This document shows, piece by piece, positions 53,663 through 64,000 of a stretch of DNA of 64,000 nt. The notes under the pieces were generated by a model, which saw only the letters and a program-made list of their open reading frames with translations, made no database searches and was not told the DNA's origin. The stretch spans positions 1,798,001 to 1,862,000 of the forward strand of contig NZ_CP124616.1 of assembly GCF_029958925.1 (NCBI RefSeq), written 5' to 3'. The DNA is from Tropicibacter oceani. Lineage in GTDB: Bacteria; Pseudomonadota; Alphaproteobacteria; Rhodobacterales; Rhodobacteraceae. Both the position numbers and the translations under genes were made by a program. How positions within the stretch are numbered: the first letter of the stretch is position 1; the number at the start of each line of letters is the position of its first letter.

Positions 53663-55870
53663 TCAGGCCGCTTTCGTGGCCGTGCCGCCGAAGCGGCCGT
53701 AAAAGCTTTGGTCCTTGTTGGCCATCTCGCGCAGCAACTCGGGGCAGTGGAAACGCGGCCCATGCGCGGCCTCCAGCTGGTCACAGCGTTCGGCGGCATA
53801 GGGGCTGCCGATCATGTCCAGCCAGGACAGCGGACCGCCCGACCAGGGCGCAAAGCCCCAACCCAGGATCGCGCCGACGTCGCCCTCGCGGATATCCTCA
53901 AGCACACCTTCCTCCAATGCGCGCACGGCTTCGAGCGATTGCACGAACAGCAGGCGGTGCTGCACTTCGATCAGGTCGGGCTGGTCTTCGGCCTGCGGGT
54001 ACTGCGCCTTGACGACCTCGGACAGGCCGGTGCGCTTGCCCGCGTCGTCATAGTCGTAGAACCCGGCCTTGGCCTTGCGGCCCAGACGCCCCTGTTCCTC
54101 CATCCAGAAGATCACTTCGTCGACCTCGCCGTCGGGATAGGCATCGCCCATGCCGGCGCGGGTGGCGCGGGCAATCTTGGCCCCCAGATCAATCGAGGTT
54201 TCATCGACCAGTTGCAGCGGCCCCAGCGGCATGCCCACCATCTTGGCGGCGTTCTCGATCAGCGCGGGCGCAATGCCCTCTTTGACCATGCGAATGCCTT
54301 CGTTGATGTAGGGGATGATGCAGCGGTTGGCATAGAAGAACCGCGCGTCGTTGACCACGATGGGCGTCTTGCGGATCTGGCGCACGAAATCCAGCGCCTT
54401 GGCCACGGCGCGGGCGCCGGTCTGCTTGCCCTTGATGATCTCGACCAGCAGCATCTTTTCGACCGGCGAAAAGAAGTGGATGCCGATGAAGTTCTCGGCG
54501 TTCTTGGACGCCTTCGCCAGATCCGAGATCGGCAGGGTGCTGGTGTTGGTGGCAAAGATGCAATCATCGCCGGTCACCGCATCGACGGCCTTTGTCACCT
54601 CGGCCTTGATCCTGGGGTCTTCGAACACCGCTTCGATGATCAGGTCGCAATCGGCCAGCGCATTGTAATCGGTGGTTGCGGTGATGCGGTCGACCATGGC
54701 CTTGGCCTTGTCCTCGGTGACCTTCTTGCGCTGCACGCCCTTGGCGGCATAGCTTTCGGTATAGGCCTTGCCCTTGTCGGCGGCGGCCTGTTCGCGGTCC
54801 AGCAGGACCACTTCGATCCCGGCCTGGGCGCTGACCAGCGCGATGCCCGCGCCCATCATGCCCGCCCCCAGGATGCCAACCTTGGACACCTTTTGATCGG
54901 GCACGTCCTTGGGACGCACCGCGCCTTTTTCCAGCGCTTCCTTGTTGATGAACAGCGACCGGATCATCGCGCCGCTGCTGGGGTTCATCAGCACGTTGAC
55001 GAACCAGCGCGCCTCGATCTTCAGGGCGGTGTCAAAGGGCACCATCGCGCCTTCGTAGACGGCGCTCAGCAGAGCCTTGGCGGCGGGGTAGACGCCCTTG
55101 GTCTTGCCGTTGACCATGGCGCTGGCGCCGACAAAAGTCATGAAGCCCGCCGGGTGATAGGGCGCGCCGCCGGGCATCTTGTAGCCCTTTTGATCCCAGG
55201 GCTTGACGATATCGGCATCCTTGGCGTTCAGAACCCATTCCTTGGCCTTGGCCAGCAGGTCCTCGGGGGCCACCACTTCGTCGACGACGCCTGCGCGCAT
55301 CGCGCCCTTGGGGTCGTTCAGCTTGCCCTCAAGCAGCAAGGGAGAGGCCGCCATCGCCCCCATCTTGCGCACCAGCCGCGTGGTGCCGCCCATGCCGGGG
55401 AAAATCCCGACCATGATTTCCGGCAGGCCGATCTTGGCCTTGGGGTTGTCGGCGGCAAAGATGCGGTGGCAGGCCAGCGGGATTTCCAGCCCGATGCCCA
55501 GCGCGGTGCCGGGCAGGGCGGCGGCGATCGGCTTGCCGCCCTTGTTGGTCTTGGGGTCCATGCCTGCGCGCTCGATCTTGCGCAGGATGCCGTGGGCGTT
55601 CATCGTGCCGTCGAACAGCCCGCGCGCGGGGTCGTCCCCGGCGCTTTCCTTCATCTTGGCGATCACGTTCAGGTCCATGCCCCCGGCAAAGCTGTCCTTG
55701 CCCGAGGTCAGCACGATGCCCTTGACGCTGTCATCGGACAGCGCATCGTCGAACAGGGCGTCGAGAAGGGGCCAGGCCTCCATCGACATCACGTTCATGG
55801 ATTTGCCCTGCACATCCCATGTGATGACAGCGACGCCGTCGTCGCCCTTGACCATGGTGAAATCGTTCAT
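53663..55870 (-). CDS. fadJ: Fatty-acid oxidation multifunctional enzyme (enoyl-CoA hydratase / 3-hydroxyacyl-CoA dehydrogenase)
   Basis: A 735-residue FadB/FadJ-type protein. The crotonase domain (about 1-190) has DSFAGGMDLN and the oxyanion-hole region GTALGIGLEIPLACH. The NAD-binding 3-hydroxyacyl-CoA dehydrogenase domain begins near 325 (KVGILGAGMMGAGIALVSAQ), with the catalytic His in IGIHFFSPVEKM. The C-terminal dehydrogenase domain follows. It is the last gene of the fatty-acid cluster, 53 bases after the cupin/NTF2 gene. It forms the beta-oxidation core with the thiolase at 58197. Confidence 0.94.
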   Translation of the reverse strand: MNDFTMVKGDDGVAVITWDVQGKSMNVMSMEAWPLLDALFDDALSDDSVKGIVLTSGKDSFAGGMDLNVIAKMKESAGDDPARGLFDGTMNAHGILRKIERAGMDPKTNKGGKPIAAALPGTALGIGLEIPLACHRIFAADNPKAKIGLPEIMVGIFPGMGGTTRLVRKMGAMAASPLLLEGKLNDPKGAMRAGVVDEVVAPEDLLAKAKEWVLNAKDADIVKPWDQKGYKMPGGAPYHPAGFMTFVGASAMVNGKTKGVYPAAKALLSAVYEGAMVPFDTALKIEARWFVNVLMNPSSGAMIRSLFINKEALEKGAVRPKDVPDQKVSKVGILGAGMMGAGIALVSAQAGIEVVLLDREQAAADKGKAYTESYAAKGVQRKKVTEDKAKAMVDRITATTDYNALADCDLIIEAVFEDPRIKAEVTKAVDAVTGDDCIFATNTSTLPISDLAKASKNAENFIGIHFFSPVEKMLLVEIIKGKQTGARAVAKALDFVRQIRKTPIVVNDARFFYANRCIIPYINEGIRMVKEGIAPALIENAAKMVGMPLGPLQLVDETSIDLGAKIARATRAGMGDAYPDGEVDEVIFWMEEQGRLGRKAKAGFYDYDDAGKRTGLSEVVKAQYPQAEDQPDLIEVQHRLLFVQSLEAVRALEEGVLEDIREGDVGAILGWGFAPWSGGPLSWLDMIGSPYAAERCDQLEAAHGPRFHCPELLREMANKDQSFYGRFGGTATKAA

Positions 55871-55923: not shown

Positions 55924-56829
55924 CTATTCGGTTTCGGGGGATGCCTGCGGCGTGGTTTGGTCCAGGCCAAGCGTCCAGTTGATGTGATCACGCGAACTTT
56001 CGATGCTGGTGATGCGCCAGCCGTCGGGCCCGTCATGCAGCCAGAAATGCGACAGCACCGGGTCCATCACCAGTTGCGCGCCGCTCAGAAGGTGCACCTT
56101 GGCGGTGACGCGTTTGCGTGTGCCGCCGTCCAGGAATTCGCGGCTTTGGATGTCGCGCACGATGTCGGTCAGGCTGTGCATCCGGATCATGTGCCGATAC
56201 AGCGCGAAATCCTTTTCCAGCGCCGCGCGGTCCCTGATGACATAGCTGGTGCCATCGCGCCCGGTGATGGTGGTGGGCAGCTCGAACAGGGTTTCGTACA
56301 GCGCAAAATCGCCCGAGATCAAAGCCCGCGTCAGGTTTTCGCCGATCGGCTCGAAGATCTCGGCCATCGGCTTTAACGCGCCGCCATCCTTGCGGGTAAA
56401 GTGGAAATTGCCGCCCTGGCTTTCGACCTTCATGTCGATGTCCGAATACCAGCCGGTTTCGGTCGGGGTATGGGTGCCGACCACCAGAAAGGCGCCGATG
56501 CTGTCCGAGCGGTTGACCATGTGGTGCCCGTTGGGATCGCCCGCCGGAAAGGCGGCGCAATCGCCGGGGCGCATTTCGGTGTCGCCCTTGTCATCGACCA
56601 GCGTCAGCACGCCTTCGGTCACCATCAGGAATTCATCCTGCTGTTCGTGCCAATGCCGCAACGATGACATGGCCCCCGGCGCCAGCCGCACCAGGTTGGC
56701 ACCAAACTGCGTGAGCCCCGAAGCCTGCCCCAGCCGCAGCTGCCGGCGTCCCGCGAACATCTGGTCGTATGGCTTGGGATAGCTGGACCCGGTGGTGACG
56801 GGAACTTCGTTCAGATCGATCTTGGGCAT
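55924..56829 (-). CDS. Cupin fused to NTF2-like domain, unknown function
   Basis: A 301-residue two-domain protein. The cupin (about 40-125) has the metal-type motif H59-W-H61 with E66 and the second histidine pair H102-H103. The C-terminal part (about 160-290) is an NTF2/SnoaL-fold domain, closely similar to the second domain of the 57315-58190 protein (shared pattern DF-x-LY, R-x-HS-x-TDI, DG-x-WR, H-x-NW). It starts four bases after the neighbouring NTF2 gene. No enzyme is recognised. The start at 56829 is the only good ATG. Confidence 0.85.
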   Translation of the reverse strand: MPKIDLNEVPVTTGSSYPKPYDQMFAGRRQLRLGQASGLTQFGANLVRLAPGAMSSLRHWHEQQDEFLMVTEGVLTLVDDKGDTEMRPGDCAAFPAGDPNGHHMVNRSDSIGAFLVVGTHTPTETGWYSDIDMKVESQGGNFHFTRKDGGALKPMAEIFEPIGENLTRALISGDFALYETLFELPTTITGRDGTSYVIRDRAALEKDFALYRHMIRMHSLTDIVRDIQSREFLDGGTRKRVTAKVHLLSGAQLVMDPVLSHFWLHDGPDGWRITSIESSRDHINWTLGLDQTTPQASPETE

Positions 56830-56832
56830 CGC

Positions 56833-57318
56833 TCAGGTCCCGTTCGCCGTATCGGGCCGGGCAGGCGGGCGGGGCGCCAGCCGGCGCGCGGTTGCCGGGT
56901 TGATGACCGTCAGGGTCGAGTTCCGGACACCGGCGCGCATGTTCCAGCCTTTCCAGACCCCGTTTTCCAGTTTCAGGGTCTGCGTGCTTTCGAACGGCGG
57001 CAAGGCATAGTAGCCGCCAGTCATGATATAAGTCGTGTGCCGCCCCTCGATCCGCGTCATCAGCGCATCCGAGAATTCGGCATGCCGGGCCACCCGGAAA
57101 TAGGCCGTGGCACCCATCGTCACCATGCTGGCGCGCACTTCCTTGATGGCATCGAACAGATCGTCCATCGTTTCGACCGCCAGTTCGGTATCTTGCGACC
57201 GCAGGACCGTGGGAACCGCCAGGTTCTGTTTGACCACGTCCCAATTGCGCTCCCAGACCGCTGTCGTCACCAGGTCCAGATGCTTGCGATAGATCTCCAG
57301 TGCGGTGGTTTCGTTCAT
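56833..57318 (-). CDS. Single-domain NTF2-like protein
   Basis: A 161-residue protein resembling an NTF2/SnoaL-fold domain (LEIYRKHLDLVTTAVWERNW, TYIMTGGYYALPPFESTQTL). It has no signal peptide. ATG 57318 overlaps the upstream gene (ATGA); a longer frame from 57384 would intrude into that gene. The C-terminal RRLAPRPPARPDTANGT is likely disordered. Function is unknown; it is translated between two other NTF2-fold genes. Confidence 0.8.
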   Translation of the reverse strand: MNETTALEIYRKHLDLVTTAVWERNWDVVKQNLAVPTVLRSQDTELAVETMDDLFDAIKEVRASMVTMGATAYFRVARHAEFSDALMTRIEGRHTTYIMTGGYYALPPFESTQTLKLENGVWKGWNMRAGVRNSTLTVINPATARRLAPRPPARPDTANGT

Positions 57319-58190
57319 TGAGTGACCTCCTCGCGCCGCCAGTTCAGATGTCCCAGGCTGTGGTGAACCGCCTTCATCCGCCACGTGCCGTCCGGCATCA
57401 GTGCCAGTGTCATCTCGCTTTCGTAGGGGTCCACGACAAAGCGTTCCTTGTTCAGGATATAGGTCTTGTATTGACCACGGATTTCGGTGTCGCTGACAAA
57501 CCGGGCATTGCGCACGATGCGCAGGATGTCGGTGACCGAGTGAATGCGGAATTCGTCCAGGTACAGCTGGAAATCGGCCCTGAGCTCGGCAAAGTTGCGA
57601 ATGACGGTGTCGCCATGCCGGCCTTGCATTTCCAGCGGGTAGGCGACGCAGCTGTGCAGCCCCTCGACATTGCCGGTCAGGTAATGCTGGGTGACGACGT
57701 TCAAAAGCGCCTGGAACAGGCCAAAGGCCTTCATGTCGTCGCCCTCGAACCCTTGGGGCGGTTGCTGGTGGGCATGGTCCGGCAGGATCGGCCAGCTTTC
57801 GTTGGCCAACCCGGATTCGGACCGAAAGTTCTTCCAGCCTCCGCCGGCGCCGCGGCGGAATTTCAGCCGCGTGGTAAAGGGCTCGATCGCCAGATCAGCG
57901 CCCTTGAACAGGCTGGTCTGGTGATAGCCGTCCAGCACCCCCAGGTCATCGACCCGGGCCGAAATGCAGATCCGTTTCAACTGGTCAACGCCGCGGCTGT
58001 CCAATTCGTTCATGTAGCGATCGAACGAAGCGGTGACCTGGTCGGGATCGTCATAGGTGATGGTCCCGTCCACCGTGGTCATGATCATAGGAAGCTGGAT
58101 ATGCGGCAGAAAGGCAGCAGCATTCCGGTCGCGCATGGCATCGGTCATCGCGTCCAGAATGTCTTGATACTGCTGCCTTGCCTGCTCCAT
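57315..58190 (-). CDS. Tandem NTF2-like domain protein
   Basis: A 291-residue protein with two NTF2-fold domains: about 1-135 (YQDILDAMTDAMRDRNAAAF) and 150-288 (NFAELRADFQLYLDEFRIHS). The second domain is homologous to the C-terminal domain of the cupin protein at 55924. A proline/glutamine-rich linker (HAHQQPPQGFEGDD) separates the two. It begins six bases after the thiolase stop. Not recognised as a known enzyme. Confidence 0.82.
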   Translation of the reverse strand: MEQARQQYQDILDAMTDAMRDRNAAAFLPHIQLPMIMTTVDGTITYDDPDQVTASFDRYMNELDSRGVDQLKRICISARVDDLGVLDGYHQTSLFKGADLAIEPFTTRLKFRRGAGGGWKNFRSESGLANESWPILPDHAHQQPPQGFEGDDMKAFGLFQALLNVVTQHYLTGNVEGLHSCVAYPLEMQGRHGDTVIRNFAELRADFQLYLDEFRIHSVTDILRIVRNARFVSDTEIRGQYKTYILNKERFVVDPYESEMTLALMPDGTWRMKAVHHSLGHLNWRREEVTQ

Positions 58191-58196
58191 CCGGCC

Positions 58197-59408
58197 TTAT
58201 ACCCTTTCGATGATCGTGGCGGCGCCCATGCCCGAGGCGATGCAAAGCGTCGCCAGGCCCGTGCCTTTGCCGGTGCGCTCCAGCTCATCCAGCAAGGTGC
58301 CGATGATGATCGCGCCGGTGGCGCCCAGCGGGTGCCCCATCGCAATGGACCCACCATTGACGTTGACCCGGTCTGCGTCAACGTCAAAGGCCTGCATGAA
58401 GCGAAGAACCACCGATGCAAAGGCCTCGTTGACCTCGAACAGGTCGATGTCGCTGATCGACATGCCGCTGTCCTTGAGGATCTTTTCGGTCACGGGAACC
58501 GGGCCGGTCAGCATGATGGTCGGATCGGTGCCGATCTTGGCGGTGGCCCGGATCCGCGCGCGCGGCTTCAGCCCCCATTTTTCGCCAAATTCCTTGTTGC
58601 CGATCAAGACACCCGCCGCGCCATCCACGATCCCCGAAGAGTTGCCCGCATGGTGAATATGGTTGATCCGCTCAAGATGCGGGTATTTCATCAGGGCGAT
58701 CTTGTCGAAACCGGGCATGACCTCGCCCATGTCCTTGAAGGCCGGCTTCAGCCCGCCCAGGCTTTGCATGTCGGTGCCGGGGCGCATGTATTCGTCGCGC
58801 TCCAGAATGGGCAACCCGTTGATGTCGCGCACGGTGATGACCGATTTGGCAAAGCGGTTGTCGTCCCATGCGGCGGCGGCGCGGCGCTGGGATTCCATCG
58901 CCAACGCGTCAGCGTCATCGCGGCTGAACCCGTATTCGGTGGCGATGATGTCGGCGCTGATGCCCTGCGGCACGAAATAGGTCTCCATGGCCAGGCTGGG
59001 ATCGACGGCAATCGCCGCGCCGTCACTGCCCATGGCCACGCGGCCCATCATCTCGACTCCGCCGGCGATATAGGCCTCGCCCGCGCCGCCCTTGACCTGG
59101 TTGGCGGCCAGGTTCACCGCTTCCATGCCCGAGGCACAGAACCGGTTGATCGCCAGGCCCGGGATCGACTGATCCAGATCAGAGGCCAGAACCGCCGAGC
59201 GCGCAAGACAGCCGCCCTGCTCGCCAACCTGGGTGACATTGCCCCAGATCACGTCCTCGACAGCATGGCCCTCAAGGCCGTTGCGTTCCTTGACGGCGTT
59301 CAGCACCTGCGCGCTCAGCCGCAGGCTGGTCACCTCGTGCAGGCTTCCGTCACTGCGGCCCTTGCCGCGCGGCGTGCGCAGGGCGTCATAGATATAGGCT
59401 TCGGTCAT
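58197..59408 (-). CDS. fadA: Acetyl-CoA C-acyltransferase (thiolase)
   Basis: Beta-ketothiolase of 403 residues that cleaves 3-ketoacyl-CoA. The nucleophilic cysteine is in NRFCASGMEAVN, the NEAFAS motif and GGSIAMGHPLGATGA follow, and the second active-site Cys is in TLCIASGMGAA. ATG 59408 has AAGGA upstream. It heads the group thiolase, three NTF2 genes and fadJ. It lies 21 bases after the GST-like gene. Confidence 0.93.
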   Translation of the reverse strand: MTEAYIYDALRTPRGKGRSDGSLHEVTSLRLSAQVLNAVKERNGLEGHAVEDVIWGNVTQVGEQGGCLARSAVLASDLDQSIPGLAINRFCASGMEAVNLAANQVKGGAGEAYIAGGVEMMGRVAMGSDGAAIAVDPSLAMETYFVPQGISADIIATEYGFSRDDADALAMESQRRAAAAWDDNRFAKSVITVRDINGLPILERDEYMRPGTDMQSLGGLKPAFKDMGEVMPGFDKIALMKYPHLERINHIHHAGNSSGIVDGAAGVLIGNKEFGEKWGLKPRARIRATAKIGTDPTIMLTGPVPVTEKILKDSGMSISDIDLFEVNEAFASVVLRFMQAFDVDADRVNVNGGSIAMGHPLGATGAIIIGTLLDELERTGKGTGLATLCIASGMGAATIIERV

Positions 59409-59429: not shown

Positions 59430-60068
59430 TCAGGCGCGGTCCGCGGGGGAACCGGGCATAAGGTCATAGGGGTGCTTCCAGCCAGGAAGGGCCTGGATGT
59501 TGGAAAGCCAGCGGTCGATCTCCGGCCAGTCGGCGCGGTCAAAGCCATAAGGCTCGGGGTAGAAGAGATACCCGCAACAGCTGAAATCGGCATTCGTCGG
59601 TCCATCGCCCACGATCCAGTCACGCCCCTTGAGATGAGCATTCAGCACAGTATGGGCGCCTTTCAGGCGACCCTGCATGAACTGGATCACAGGTGCGGGG
59701 CGTTTTTCCTCGGGCAGGAAATTCATCAGGAACCGGGTCATGCCGGCCTGGCTGGACATCTTGTGGTTGTCCCAGAACATCCAGCGCATGACTTCGCGCG
59801 CCTCTTCGGGGGTGGCCCCGCCGAATTTGCCGCTTTTCTCGGTGACATACATCTGGATCACGGCTGATTGGGTCAGCGTGGTGTCGCCATCGACAAGAAC
59901 CGGGACCTCGCCCATCTCGTTGACCTCGGCCAGATACTCGGGCGTGCGGGTCGCGCCGCCGAAAAAGTCGACATAGACCGGACCCCAGTCCAGGCCGGAC
60001 AGTTCAAGCGGCAGCGCCGCCTTGTAGGCATTGCCGGATTCCCCGAAGCAGTGAAGTTTGATGGTCAT
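59430..60068 (-). CDS. Glutathione S-transferase family protein
   Basis: A 212-residue GST-fold protein. The thioredoxin-like N-terminal part includes HCFGESGNAYKAALPLELSG with the TQSAVIQMYV segment, and the helical domain has GRDWIVGDGPTNADFSCCGY. GGGAGG precedes ATG 60068. It sits before the thiolase. The substrate is unknown; it could act on reactive acyl or enone compounds of this pathway. Confidence 0.9.
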   Translation of the reverse strand: MTIKLHCFGESGNAYKAALPLELSGLDWGPVYVDFFGGATRTPEYLAEVNEMGEVPVLVDGDTTLTQSAVIQMYVTEKSGKFGGATPEEAREVMRWMFWDNHKMSSQAGMTRFLMNFLPEEKRPAPVIQFMQGRLKGAHTVLNAHLKGRDWIVGDGPTNADFSCCGYLFYPEPYGFDRADWPEIDRWLSNIQALPGWKHPYDLMPGSPADRA

Positions 60069-60435
60069 GGCACGAGGCCTCCCGTTGCATGTGATGTCGA
60101 GGGCAGAAGCGGGGGCTTCGCGCCCCTGCACCCCCGCGGAGTATTTTCACCAAGAAGAAGCCATAGGTACCTTCGGTAACCGCGAATTAACGTTAATGGC
60201 ATTTGATCCACCCTGCGGTACAGGCTGGAGAGCCGATGACCGCCCAAGGAGAAGCCCCGCCTCGTTCCTGATGCCAGTCGGCCGGTGTCCGTGGCGGGGT
60301 GGACCGACTGCTGCCCGCGCTGCCAACAGGGTTCGATGTTCGGTCCATCTTCTTCTTGGGAAAAATACTCCACGGGGGTCTGGGGGTGTGAAACCCCCAG
60401 CGCTGCCCTGCCTGCACACCCTGCGGTCAGACCGG
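60069..60435. other. Intergenic region with an inverted pair of repeats
   Basis: No gene. It holds the imperfect inverted repeats described separately (60131-60160 and 60349-60378), which together could fold the whole gap. No T-run terminator of the usual type was found. Confidence 0.5.
60131..60378. repeat. Inverted pair of intergenic repeats
   Basis: Copies at 60131-60160 (plus) and 60349-60378 (minus) share a roughly 30-base core: CCCCCGYGGAGTATTTT, then CAAGAAGAAG. They differ at a few positions. Each copy has a GC-rich hairpin before the core (GGGGG..CCCC type). Such elements recur in Rhodobacteraceae intergenic DNA. They might act as bidirectional terminators or protein-binding sites. 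Confidence 0.6.
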
Positions 60436-61569
60436 TCAAAGCGCCCTCGCAATCAGCTCTTTCATGATCTCGTTGGTGCCGCCGTAAATGCGCTGCACCC
60501 TTGCATCCGTCCACATCTCCGCCACAGCGTATTCCTGCATGAAGCCATAGCCGCCGTGCAGTTGCAGGCAGTCGTCCAGCACCTCGCCCTGCGTATCCGT
60601 CAGCCAGTATTTCGCCATCGCGGCCTTTTCCACGCTCAGCGCGCCGCGCAGGTGTTCCTCCATGCAGGCGTCCAGAAAGGCGCGGGCCACGGTTGTCCTT
60701 GTCTGGCATTCGGCCAGTTTGAAGCGGGTGTTCTGGAACTGGGTCAGCGGGCCGCCAAAGGCTTCGCGTTCCTTGCAATAGGCGATGGTGCGTTCGACCG
60801 CCCCTTCCATCGCGCCCACGGCGCCGCAGCCGATGATCAGCCGTTCCTGCGGAAGCTGCTTCATCATCTGGTAAAAGCCCTGGCCCTCGTCGTCGCCCAG
60901 AAGGTTTTCCGGCGCGATCTCGACGTTGTCGAAGAACAATTCCGAGGTATCCGCCGCGTGGCAGCCGATCTTTTCCAGGTTGCGGCCGCGTGAAAAGCCG
61001 GTCGCGCCTTCGGTTTCGACCACCACAAGCGAGACGCCCTTGGACCCCAGCGCGGGGTCGGTCTTGGCCGCTACGATGATCAGGTTGGCGTGCTGACCGT
61101 TGGTGATAAAGGTCTTTTGCCCCGAAAGCCGGTAGGCATTGCCATCCTTGATCGCGCGGGTCTTGATCCGCTGCACGTCCGATCCGCCCGAGGGTTCTGT
61201 CATTGCCAAGGCGCCGACCAGTTCGCCGGTCACCATCTTGGGCAGCCAGCGCTGTTTTTGTTCTTCTGTGCCGTAGGCCAGGATGTAATGCGCCACGATG
61301 CCCGAATGGATGCCGTGGCCCCAGGACGCCAGATTGGCGCGCGAGGCTTCGATCAGGATCACCGCCTCGTGGCCGAAATCGCCGCCCGCGCCGCCGTATT
61401 CTTCGGGGATCGAGGGGCACAGCAGCCCCAATTCCCCGGCCTGCCGCCAGGTTTCCGGGTCCATCTGACCCTGCTTGCGCCATTTGTCATACAGCGGTTG
61501 CCACTCGGTTTCGATGAACTTGCGCGTCATCTCGCCCAACATGGCATGCTCTTGTGTCATCCAACCCAT
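60436..61569 (-). CDS. Acyl-CoA dehydrogenase
   Basis: FAD-dependent acyl-CoA dehydrogenase of 377 residues. FAD/substrate motifs [18 protein letters not shown] and the C-terminal [20 protein letters not shown] are clear. GGGAGG lies before ATG 61569. Electrons should go to ETF. It follows the RHH-like small gene and precedes the repeat-bearing gap. The chain-length specificity is not visible. Confidence 0.93.
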
Positions 61570-61589: not shown

Positions 61590-61802
61590 CTATCGTTTCC
61601 GATCCTCCAGATCGGCATTGAACAGCTGCAATCGGTGCGCCAGCGCGTCGCTGTCCGTCACGCTGGCGAAGTTTTCAAAGAGGAAAGACAGGGCCTCACC
61701 TTCGTCCAACCCGGCCGCAGCGGCAAAGTTCCGAAGGCCACGATAGCCGTCTTCGGTCATCGCAACAGGGAAACGCCGCGTCAGACGAAACCGTTTTGGC
61801 AT
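61590..61802 (-). CDS. Small ribbon-helix-helix-like protein
   Basis: A 70-residue basic-then-acidic protein: [20 protein letters not shown] could be the DNA-contacting beta strand and first helix, and [20 protein letters not shown] the second helix. This is the pattern of ribbon-helix-helix regulators. It lies 20 bases before the acyl-CoA dehydrogenase gene and 45 after the larger dehydrogenase, in the same direction. A role as a local regulator is inferred only. Confidence 0.6.
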
Positions 61803-61847: not shown

Positions 61848-63629
61848 TCAGAAACTTGCGGCGTCCAGCGCCATGACCGTGTCCGCGCCGCTTTGGATGC
61901 GGGCCAGATGCGTTGCGGTCATCGGCAGTTGCCGCGCCATGTAATAGCGCCCGGTCGCCAGCTTGGCCTCGTAGAAGGCGGCATCGCCCGTGCCCGAGGC
62001 CAGTTTCTGCTGTGCCGCCAGCCCCATGCGGGCCCACATCAGGCCCAGGCAGACATGGCCGAACAGGTGCATGAAGTCATACGACCCGGCCAGCGCGTTG
62101 TTCGGGTTCTTCATGCCGTTCTGCATGAAATACATGCCCGCTGCCTGCAGATCCTTGCTGGCGGCCTTCAGCGGCTCAAGGAACTGCGCGTCAAAGGCGT
62201 CGTCCTGGCCCTTGGCCTCGGCGGCGAAGGTCTTGACCATGTCGAAGAAGGCCATGACGTGCTTGCCGCCGTCCTGTCCCAGCTTGCGGCCGACAAGATC
62301 CAGCGCCTGAACGCCGTTCGCGCCTTCGTAGATCATGGCGATCCGGGCGTCGCGGGCGAACTGGGACATGCCCCATTCCTCGATATAGCCGTGCCCGCCA
62401 TAGACCTGCTGCGCATTGGTCGCGCAGTCAAAGCCCTTGTCGGTCAGGAAGCCCTTGATCACCGGGGTCAGCAGCGAAATCAGGCCGTCGGCGGCCTTGT
62501 CGTCGCATTTATGCGCGCGGTCGATCATCGCGGCGCCCCAAAGGGTAAAGGCCCGCGCCCCTTCGACAAAGCTTTTCTGGTCCATCAGGTTGCGGCGGAT
62601 GTCGGGGTGCACGATCAGCGGATCGGCCGGGCCGTCCGGGTTCTTGGCGCCGGTCACGTCGCGGCCCTGCAGGCGGTCCTTGGCGTATTCCAGGGCGTTC
62701 TGATAGGCGACCTCGGCCTGGGCATAGCCCTGCAGGCCAACGCCGATGCGCGCTTCGTTCATCATGGTGAACATGGCGCGCATGCCCTTGTGTTCCTCGC
62801 CCAGCAGGTAGCCGGTTGCCTCGTCATAGTTCATAACGCAGGTCGAGTTGCCGTGGATGCCCATCTTTTCCTCGATCTTGCCGACCGAGACGGGGTTGCG
62901 GTCCCCGACCGTGCCATCGTCGTTCACGATGAATTTCGGGACGATGAACAGCGACACGCCCTTGATGCCCTCGGGGCCGCCGGGGATCTTGGCCAGAACC
63001 AGATGGATCACGTTTTCCGAAAGGTCGTGGTCACCGGCCGAGATGAAGATCTTTTGCCCGGTCACCTTGTAGGTGCCATCGCCCTGCGGCACCGCCTTGG
63101 TGCGCATCAGGCCCAGGTCCGTACCGCAATGCGGTTCGGTCAGGTTCATCGTGCCGGTCCATTCGCAGGTCACCATCTTGGGCAGATAGGTCGCCTTTTG
63201 CGCGTCGGTGCCATGGGCATGGATCGCCGAATAGGCCCCGTGCGTCAGGCCCTGGTACATGTTGAAGGCCATGTTGGCCGCCGAAAACTGTTCGCCCACC
63301 GCGGTCGCCACCACGTAAGGCAGGCCCTGGCCGCCATACTCGGGGTCGCAGTCCAGCGCGGTCCAGCCACCGGCGCGGACCTCGTCAAAGGCGGCCTTGA
63401 ACCCCTCGGGGGTGCGCACGATGCCGTTTTCCAGCCTGCAGCCCTGTTGATCGCCCACCGCGTTCAGCGGCGCCATGACGTTTTCCGCCAGTTTGGCCGC
63501 CTCGCCCAGGATCGCCTCGGTTGTTTCGGCGTCCAGTTCATCGTAGCCCGGAACATCCTGTTCCGAAATCTTCAGCACATCATGCAAGACAAAAAGCTGG
63601 TCTTTGACCGGGGCGGTATAGGTGGGCAT
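61848..63629 (-). CDS. Long acyl-CoA dehydrogenase (FadE/DmdC-like)
   Basis: A 593-residue acyl-CoA dehydrogenase with a C-terminal extension (about 460-593), as in DmdC and related proteins. FAD motifs [19 protein letters not shown] and the catalytic Glu in [19 protein letters not shown] are intact. The N-terminus ([19 protein letters not shown]) is that of the family which includes 3-methylmercaptopropionyl-CoA dehydrogenase. Substrate is uncertain; the other dmd genes are absent, so general fatty acids are more likely. Confidence 0.9.
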
Positions 63630-63664: not shown

Positions 63665-64000
63665 CTATCCGGCCGCGCGGTTTTGTTGTCCGACCGTCGC
63701 GATCATGCGCTCGGCCCATTTCATCTGGTCCTGCAGATCCTGTATGGCTGCATTCATGTCGTCGCGCTGGCGGACCAGGTCGGTCAGCCGTTCCTGCGCC
63801 ACTTCGTAGGATCGCTGCAGCTGGGTCTGCTGCTGGTCACCCACGTGGTACAGATCCAGAAGCTGGCGGATTTCCTCCAGGCTGAAGCCAAAGCGCTTGC
63901 CGCGCAGGATCAGTTTCAGCCGGGCGCGGTCGCGCCGGGTAAACAGGCGCTTCTGGCCTTCGCGGATGGGAAACAGCAATTCCTTCTGCTCGTAAAAGCG
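63665..64000 (-). CDS. MerR-family regulator (5' truncated)
   Basis: The visible frame (112 codons, open at the right edge) has the MerR DNA-binding domain end (RFYEQKELLFPIREGQKRLF, TRRDRARLKLILRGKRFGFS) and a C-terminal coiled coil rich in Gln, Glu and Arg (about QTQLQRSYEVAQERLTDL). It lies 35 bases upstream of the fadE-like gene and is transcribed toward it. It probably controls this fatty-acid cluster, like other MerR regulators of acyl-CoA catabolism. Confidence 0.85.
   Translation of the reverse strand, partial: RFYEQKELLFPIREGQKRLFTRRDRARLKLILRGKRFGFSLEEIRQLLDLYHVGDQQQTQLQRSYEVAQERLTDLVRQRDDMNAAIQDLQDQMKWAERMIATVGQQNRAAG

Follow-up and report, generated by a model that had tools for sequence, protein, structure and literature searches.

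A variable slot for cupin and NTF2-like modules between the thiolase and FadJ-like genes of a Rhodobacteraceae beta-oxidation operon

Beta-oxidation is usually regarded as a fixed core pathway, and among its described gene arrangements are operons that pair a thiolase with FadJ; tandem or cooperating pairs of NTF2 domains are known from Lsd19 and MonBI-MonBII, and cupins with a metal site carry the ligand motif HxH(x)4E ... H. Here we describe a beta-oxidation operon of Tropicibacter oceani, a member of the Rhodobacteraceae, which are abundant in the sea. The stretch we analyzed (NZ_CP124616.1, positions 1,798,001 to 1,862,000, 64,000 nucleotides, hereafter the window) encodes a PRK08242 thiolase and a FadJ-like protein, as FadJ-thiolase operons do, and between these two genes lie three small genes for NTF2-like and cupin domains. 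Comparison across the family showed that this place is a slot whose content turns over between related genera and is nearly confined to two folds. One is a cupin with a metal site and the other a distinct NTF2-like domain, and they occur singly, in repeats or as fusions. Our favored reading, which we judge evenly poised between right and wrong, is that the slot is exchangeable, that these three genes are one of its fillings in a beta-oxidation operon widespread in the family, and that the modules are optional accessory proteins of the FadJ-thiolase step. The slot and its borders in the window are as follows.

58197-59408, minus strand: thiolase, upstream border of the slot (PRK08242 equivalog; start from the gene caller)
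57315-58190, minus strand: slot gene A, NTF2-NTF2, 291 amino acids (ORF and gene calls with domain analysis; ORF, open reading frame)
56833-57318, minus strand: slot gene B, single NTF2-like domain, 161 amino acids, overlapping A through ATGA
55924-56829, minus strand: slot gene C, cupin-NTF2, 301 amino acids (cupin residues 1-150, at 56380-56829; NTF2-like residues 151-301)
53663-55870, minus strand: FadJ-like enoyl-CoA hydratase/3-hydroxyacyl-CoA dehydrogenase, downstream border of the slot (PF00378, PF02737, PF00725)

An earlier note on this DNA, made from the letters alone, had described three co-oriented genes between thiolase and fadJ with gaps of 6 and 3 bases and one ATGA overlap, and the gene calls agree: 6 bases separate the thiolase from A, A and B share the overlap, 3 bases separate B from C, and 53 separate C from fadJ. 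The domain make-up it proposed (NTF2-NTF2, NTF2 and cupin-NTF2) was likewise borne out by fold prediction and by a match of the cupin to PF07883. The thiolase passes the PRK08242 (acetyl-CoA C-acetyltransferase) equivalog cut-off with 685.6 bits against 514, whereas its partner stays under the equivalog cut-offs for FadJ (PRK11154, the best, 535.9 against 869; TIGR02440, 471.1 against 968.45); it has the enoyl-CoA hydratase and 3-hydroxyacyl-CoA dehydrogenase domains, and we therefore call it FadJ-like.

The slot was surveyed by a thiolase search of 198 genomes of the family, one per genus, of which 188 gave a match at 1e-150; the best-scoring 150 of the 188 were read, the other 38 being uncounted. 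Earlier samples comprised 40 stretches chosen mostly through matches to the cupin-NTF2 protein, 80 named loci found through the thiolase, and further stretches; in these the genes of the frame were constant and what lay between thiolase and fadJ varied. The set of 231 distinct slots that remains when duplicates of slot sequence are removed includes loci picked through matches to the modules themselves, so only the 150-genus survey gives frequencies. Writing N for an NTF2-like module, C for a cupin module and a hyphen for fusion in one protein, we found the slot empty in 56 of the 150 genera, filled with N and/or C modules in 91 (18 arrangements), and in neither state in three (a 98-residue ORF, a 101-residue ORF, and a 266-base gap with no ORF). 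The commonest fillings were N (32 genera), C (27), N-N (8), N C (4) and C C (3), followed by N-N N, N C N, N C C and N N with two each and nine further N/C arrangements seen once each; three of the 91 occupied slots also carry one unlabeled ORF, left out of the arrangement name. A single domain thus fills 59 of the 91 occupied slots (N in 32, two of them with an unlabeled ORF besides, and C in 27). The 231 distinct slots together show 26 N/C arrangements, and the exact set of the window occurs in one slot only. Both modules were present in 17 of the 150 genera, N only in 44, C only in 30 and neither in 59 (Fisher p 0.48), and this independence over genera speaks against a mutual need. The earlier note had suggested that the three genes form a hetero-oligomeric enzyme or sensor for an unusual acyl-CoA or ring substrate; we rejected an obligate three-gene complex because most occupied slots hold a single domain and N and C show independence, and with the window's own combination so rare an obligate hetero-oligomer is not supported. 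One record in our samples, named Enemella evansiae TN21-6 (which we take to be an actinobacterial name), carries this alphaproteobacterial operon, and the name looks wrong.

The restriction of the slot to these two modules is nearly complete. Counting co-directional ORFs of at least 60 residues in the 231 slots (ORFs on the opposite strand were not counted), 219 of 226 have an N or C domain, the other seven being a fragment of thiolase sequence (L047), two short ORFs (60 and 62 residues), and ORFs of 98 (L218), 107 (L146), 165 (L278) and 101 (L289) residues. By the same method, N and C families were absent from control ORFs in the neighborhood: in 117 loci none of the 25 unrecognized ORFs that lie between acyl-CoA dehydrogenase 1 and the thiolase belongs to them, and in 189 loci neither does any of the 362 ORFs within 2.5 kb after fadJ, or 0 of 387 in total. 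The best control ORF scored 8.1 bits for N and 6.0 for C, against at least 30.6 bits for 157 of 158 slot N domains (the exception, in L281 with 13.3 bits, is doubtfully labeled) and at least 159.8 bits for all 101 slot cupins; the profiles were built from slot domains, so this comparison tests place and not the breadth of the families. As homologs occupy the same place in many genera and are absent from all 387 neighboring ORFs, their placement is not due to chance. Packing is tight: over 159 occupied loci, duplicates included, the medians are 4 nt from thiolase to the first ORF, -1 between ORFs and 3 from the last ORF to fadJ, 25 of the 82 junctions between ORFs are 4-base overlaps, and two Ruegeria loci display an overlap of thiolase stop and cupin start, TGATG. 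Among the rare occupants, the proteins of 98 and 107 residues look similar and represent a third kind (the 98-residue protein has no Pfam match), and the 165-residue ORF, which follows an N module, has cysteine pairs resembling, by eye, those of GFA-type proteins.

To assess turnover, thiolase and FadJ of the 150 loci were combined in one FastTree tree and labels were shuffled 300 times. Arrangements fit this tree hardly better than when shuffled, with 80 changes where shuffling gave 84.3 on average (minimum 77); empty or not needed 43 against 45.1, and having N 44 against 47.6; in sister pairs the arrangement is the same in 15 of 52 and differs in 37. The window's sister, G002, has an empty slot, and two strains named Ruegeria arenilitoris have one an empty slot and the other a C. 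The slot genes evolve fast yet are mostly under purifying selection, though relaxed: in nine close pairs with the same set (four in Ruegeria, one each in Mameliella, Roseobacter, Celeribacter and Tateyamaria, and one further), omega (dN/dS, the ratio of nonsynonymous to synonymous divergence) was 0.05-0.50 for slot genes, 0.01-0.05 for thiolase and 0.03-0.11 for FadJ, and in four more distant pairs matched slot genes gave 0.27-0.45, with dS often near or above 1. Between the window and L074, which also has a fused cupin-NTF2, the first gene is 52% and the third 57% identical, against 94% for thiolase and 90% for FadJ. In Ruegeria the cupin has a dS of 0.25-0.30 against 0.55-0.68 for thiolase, which suggests that the slot can move separately from its flanks; in the other close pairs the drop is less clear.

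The N domain is an NTF2 fold that mostly falls outside the described Pfam families. As the earlier note had argued, the second domain of gene A and the C-terminal domain of the cupin-NTF2 protein are paralogous (33% identity, E 4e-14, with the motifs it quoted present). An AlphaFold2 model of the latter domain has the NTF2 fold, a cone of alpha+beta type in which N-terminal helices pack against a curved sheet (predicted local distance difference test, pLDDT, 88.4; predicted template modeling score, pTM, 0.81), and comparison of this model with the PDB (VIA-align) gave Z 14.6 to 6p7l (root-mean-square deviation, rmsd, 2.8, 129 residues aligned) and Z 14.2 to scytalone dehydratase 1idp (rmsd 3.1, 128 aligned); structural neighbors of the NTF2 domains include epoxide hydrolases, scytalone dehydratase and the CaMKII hub. 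In the tandem model of gene A (pLDDT 86.8, pTM 0.62) the domains are confident internally and their mutual placement is not. The NTF2 domains of the window fall below every NTF2-family Pfam cut-off, the best scores being 14.2 bits for DUF6841 (cut-off 27) and 12.1 for SnoaL_3 (cut-off 22). Pfam matches at E up to 0.1 among 73 slot N domains were to DUF4440 (6, best 3e-6), SnoaL_3 (6, best 0.0043) and DUF6841 (3, best 8e-4), and the majority match no SnoaL-like, DUF4440 or DUF6841 family. A search of PDB sequences with the NTF2 profile found no convincing relative, the best rows being other folds at E ~0.02. A cupin with an N fused behind it was seen in four loci (the window, L032, L074 and L079), and the unfused domains closest to the fused N of the window (41-47% identity) belong to separate N genes that stand alone or next to cupins (L052-L055), so the same parts exist both fused and separate.

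The cupin of the window passes the gathering cut-off of Cupin_2 (PF07883) with 59.4 against 27.2 bits and has H59, H61, E66 and H102 at the ligand positions, which in the 101 distinct slot cupins are kept in 101, 97, 101 and 101 cases, respectively; on this pattern of residues the slot cupin has the ligand set of a metal site and is a putative metal-binding protein.

Searches beyond the slot bear on how closely the modules are tied to it. An N search of 71 genomes of the family at E up to 1e-4 gave 32 matches in 18 genomes, 25 of them in the thiolase-fadJ slot; as to its sensitivity, four (G001, G007, G032, G061) of 18 genomes among G000-G070 with an N in the slot gave no match. In a sample of 289 genomes from the class (4 shown as family members), two family members matched the N profile strongly and seven genomes outside the family weakly, at 8e-9 to 1.8e-4 with at most 13 candidates scored per genome, and in 80 genomes outside the family there were four weak matches, none adjoining a thiolase (the nearest at ~8 kb). 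A search of genome contigs with the tandem NTF2 protein found no relative, and tblastn of the same protein against plasmids gave no match. Judged by these profile matches the N domain is likely restricted to the family, a restriction not proven in that the search misses diverged members. The cupin reaches further: in 30 loci read outside the family a FadJ match adjoins the thiolase in 29 (weakly, at 26%, in L339) and L344 has none in its stretch, and the only ORFs in the gap are three cupins of the slot cupin family (L318, L327, L337; families f57, f126 and f137 of the same class). Two further sites of N-type genes were seen. In L168 (9249-10211) two lie on the opposite strand within a ribosomal-protein operon (rpsC/rplP-like to rpmC-like, named by eye), far from the slot, and a second N-N protein of G047 (L058, 9007-9921) stands ~4 kb upstream of another FadJ-like/thiolase pair, so that another beta-oxidation cluster may likewise have an N-N protein nearby.

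Under our favored reading the slot modules would be co-translated with the thiolase, and each of them, produced beside thiolase and FadJ, would act on or hold an acyl-CoA intermediate or by-product at their step. For the cupin this would mean metal-dependent catalysis. The NTF2 domains would offer a cone-shaped pocket that can change, working as homodimers or, in the tandem proteins, as built-in pairs, for which Lsd19 and MonBI-MonBII are a precedent; modules would be gained, lost and swapped as the acyl substrates of a lineage change. In favor of this reading are the near-exclusive content of the slot, its turnover, the selection on its genes, their tight packing, the retained ligand residues of the cupin and its recurrence in the slot in three other families. 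We also put forward, tentatively and with more doubt than belief, the bolder proposal of a two-fold toolkit, in which cupin and NTF2-like proteins would stand in for one another as adaptors or enzymes of the FadJ-thiolase step, being exchanged, multiplied and fused from genus to genus, which would make this a dedicated hypervariable slot in a core catabolic operon; comparable plug-in modularity is, to our knowledge, not known in any central metabolic pathway. Several results weigh against the favored reading. The tie to beta-oxidation asserted in the earlier note holds for N, whose matches lie mostly inside the slot and not, as that note had allowed, mostly outside such clusters, and is supported by the cupins in the slot of three genomes of other families; for the cupin outside the family the finding goes against it, as a related cupin at 1e-15 occurs in 24 of the 80 non-family genomes with a thiolase, adjoining it in 3 and lying away from it in 21. 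Related cupins within the family also stand in other neighborhoods, with no functional hint, and the remaining 7 of the 32 N matches lie elsewhere in the genome, e.g., inside a ribosomal-protein operon. With no module in 56 of 150 genera, beta-oxidation as such can do without them. For C the turnover is incomplete, as its presence shows some signal on the tree (34 changes against 39.8 shuffled, minimum 33). The N alignment reveals no common catalytic set and lacks a conserved acid/base set: of the widely kept residues, only P (150/155), W (144/154) and R (129/156) are of a kind possibly relevant to a pocket, and identity to ketosteroid isomerase, scytalone dehydratase and epoxide hydrolases is too low to map their catalytic residues onto it. 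Lastly, slot content is associated with certain residues of thiolase and FadJ (z up to 5.6, the permutation limit being ~3.7), an association in which relatedness is uncontrolled and which we do not use.

Three other explanations were weighed. The first, which we regard as unlikely, is that each module is a substrate-specific enzyme with its own reaction (isomerization, dehydration, epoxide opening or oxygenation) on an unusual acyl-CoA and has no physical tie to thiolase or FadJ, the operon serving only for co-regulation. The retained metal ligands of the cupin, the epoxide hydrolases and scytalone dehydratase among the NTF2 neighbors, and a turnover that fits changing substrates all agree with it; however, N shows no shared catalytic residues, and co-regulation needs no such particular place, whereas the modules lie between thiolase and fadJ, the other ORFs examined in the operon containing none. 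The second, distinctly unlikely in our view, takes the modules for non-catalytic partners of a FadJ-thiolase complex (in assembly, as an oligomerization hub or as a lid), a role in which two small folds might serve equally. It would account for the independence of N and C and their occurrence alone, for the CaMKII hub among the NTF2 neighbors and for the tight spacing to thiolase and fadJ, but near-invariant metal ligands are unexpected in a mere scaffold, and 56 of 150 genera need no such partner. The third sees in the slot a hot spot of recombination or insertion, with contents of little consequence and with duplications and fusions as by-products; it would suit the nearly random arrangements on the tree, the low cupin dS in Ruegeria with its hint of movement apart from the flanks, and the contrasting R. 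arenilitoris strains, but is highly improbable given that almost only two folds are present, that they are under purifying selection and that the cupin metal site is kept.

The slot lies within a larger operon. All its genes lie on the minus strand in the order MerR regulator, acyl-CoA dehydrogenase 1, 70-residue protein, acyl-CoA dehydrogenase 2, GST, thiolase, the three small genes and the FadJ-like gene, and the frequencies of the frame genes below refer to 113 distinct loci with at least 5 kb upstream.

63665-63979, minus strand: MerR-type regulator (PF09278; ORF call, start uncertain), present in 111/113 loci
61848-63629, minus strand: acyl-CoA dehydrogenase 1, with C-terminal PF12806, present in 111/113 loci
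61590-61802, minus strand: 70-residue frame protein with no Pfam match, present in 86/113 loci
60436-61569, minus strand: acyl-CoA dehydrogenase 2, optional frame gene, present in 37/113 loci
59430-60068, minus strand: GST-like frame gene (PF02798/PF00043), present in 107/113 loci

Slot content and the optional acyl-CoA dehydrogenase 2 showed no significant co-occurrence (p 0.07 for N and 0.16 for C). The window has an imperfect inverted repeat between the genes for GST and acyl-CoA dehydrogenase 2 (60100-60160 and 60349-60409, arms of 61 nt, 79% complementary, 188 nt apart), and the translated stretch GHRLSSLYR is common to a frame of the window and a reading frame of L037 near the same gap; by its sequence the repeat may be a member of a repeat family. 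A further protein, grouped by eye, recurs between acyl-CoA dehydrogenase 1 and thiolase in L047, L172 (two copies), L174 and L178, mostly with a signal-peptide-like start and a PP-containing motif such as DYMPP; a similar one in L079 has no signal peptide, and the one tested, that of L047, has no Pfam match.

A slot that is nearly confined to two small folds, differs in 37 of 52 sister pairs and is yet under selection points to an unrecognized layer of adaptation in fatty-acid use; two little-characterized protein families gain a concrete context, and natural strains that are empty, N only or C only are ready comparisons. The earlier note had considered that all three genes might prove to be an already characterized enzyme, and no characterized enzyme was found for any part. 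For the cupin, the closest comparison is PDB 3i7d, deposited as a "sugar phosphate isomerase", which matches the cupin domain of the window over its full length (E 2.6e-59) with the same histidine/glutamate pattern but is a single cupin chain for which we saw no link to beta-oxidation; the name is the depositors', the function is unproven, and no paper naming 3I7D was found in the open-licence literature. For N, the SnoaL-like, DUF4440 and DUF6841 families of Pfam share the NTF2 fold, but as noted they leave most slot N domains unmatched. The tandem NTF2 epoxide hydrolases Lsd19 and MonBI-MonBII are the top Foldseek matches to the model of gene A over both domains (E 1.7e-9), but they are enzymes of polyether biosynthesis with 8-10% identity to A, and their poor superposition (template modeling score 0.31-0.36, rmsd ~14 A) indicates that the domains are set differently. 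FadJ-thiolase operons share the two border genes with the present one and differ in that here an exchangeable module slot lies between them, a slot of which we found no description in the open-licence literature. Both folds, and accessory genes in catabolic operons, are known, and what appears new here, judged by the open-licence literature, is an exchangeable slot within a beta-oxidation operon, which may yet prove to be more than a variation on these.

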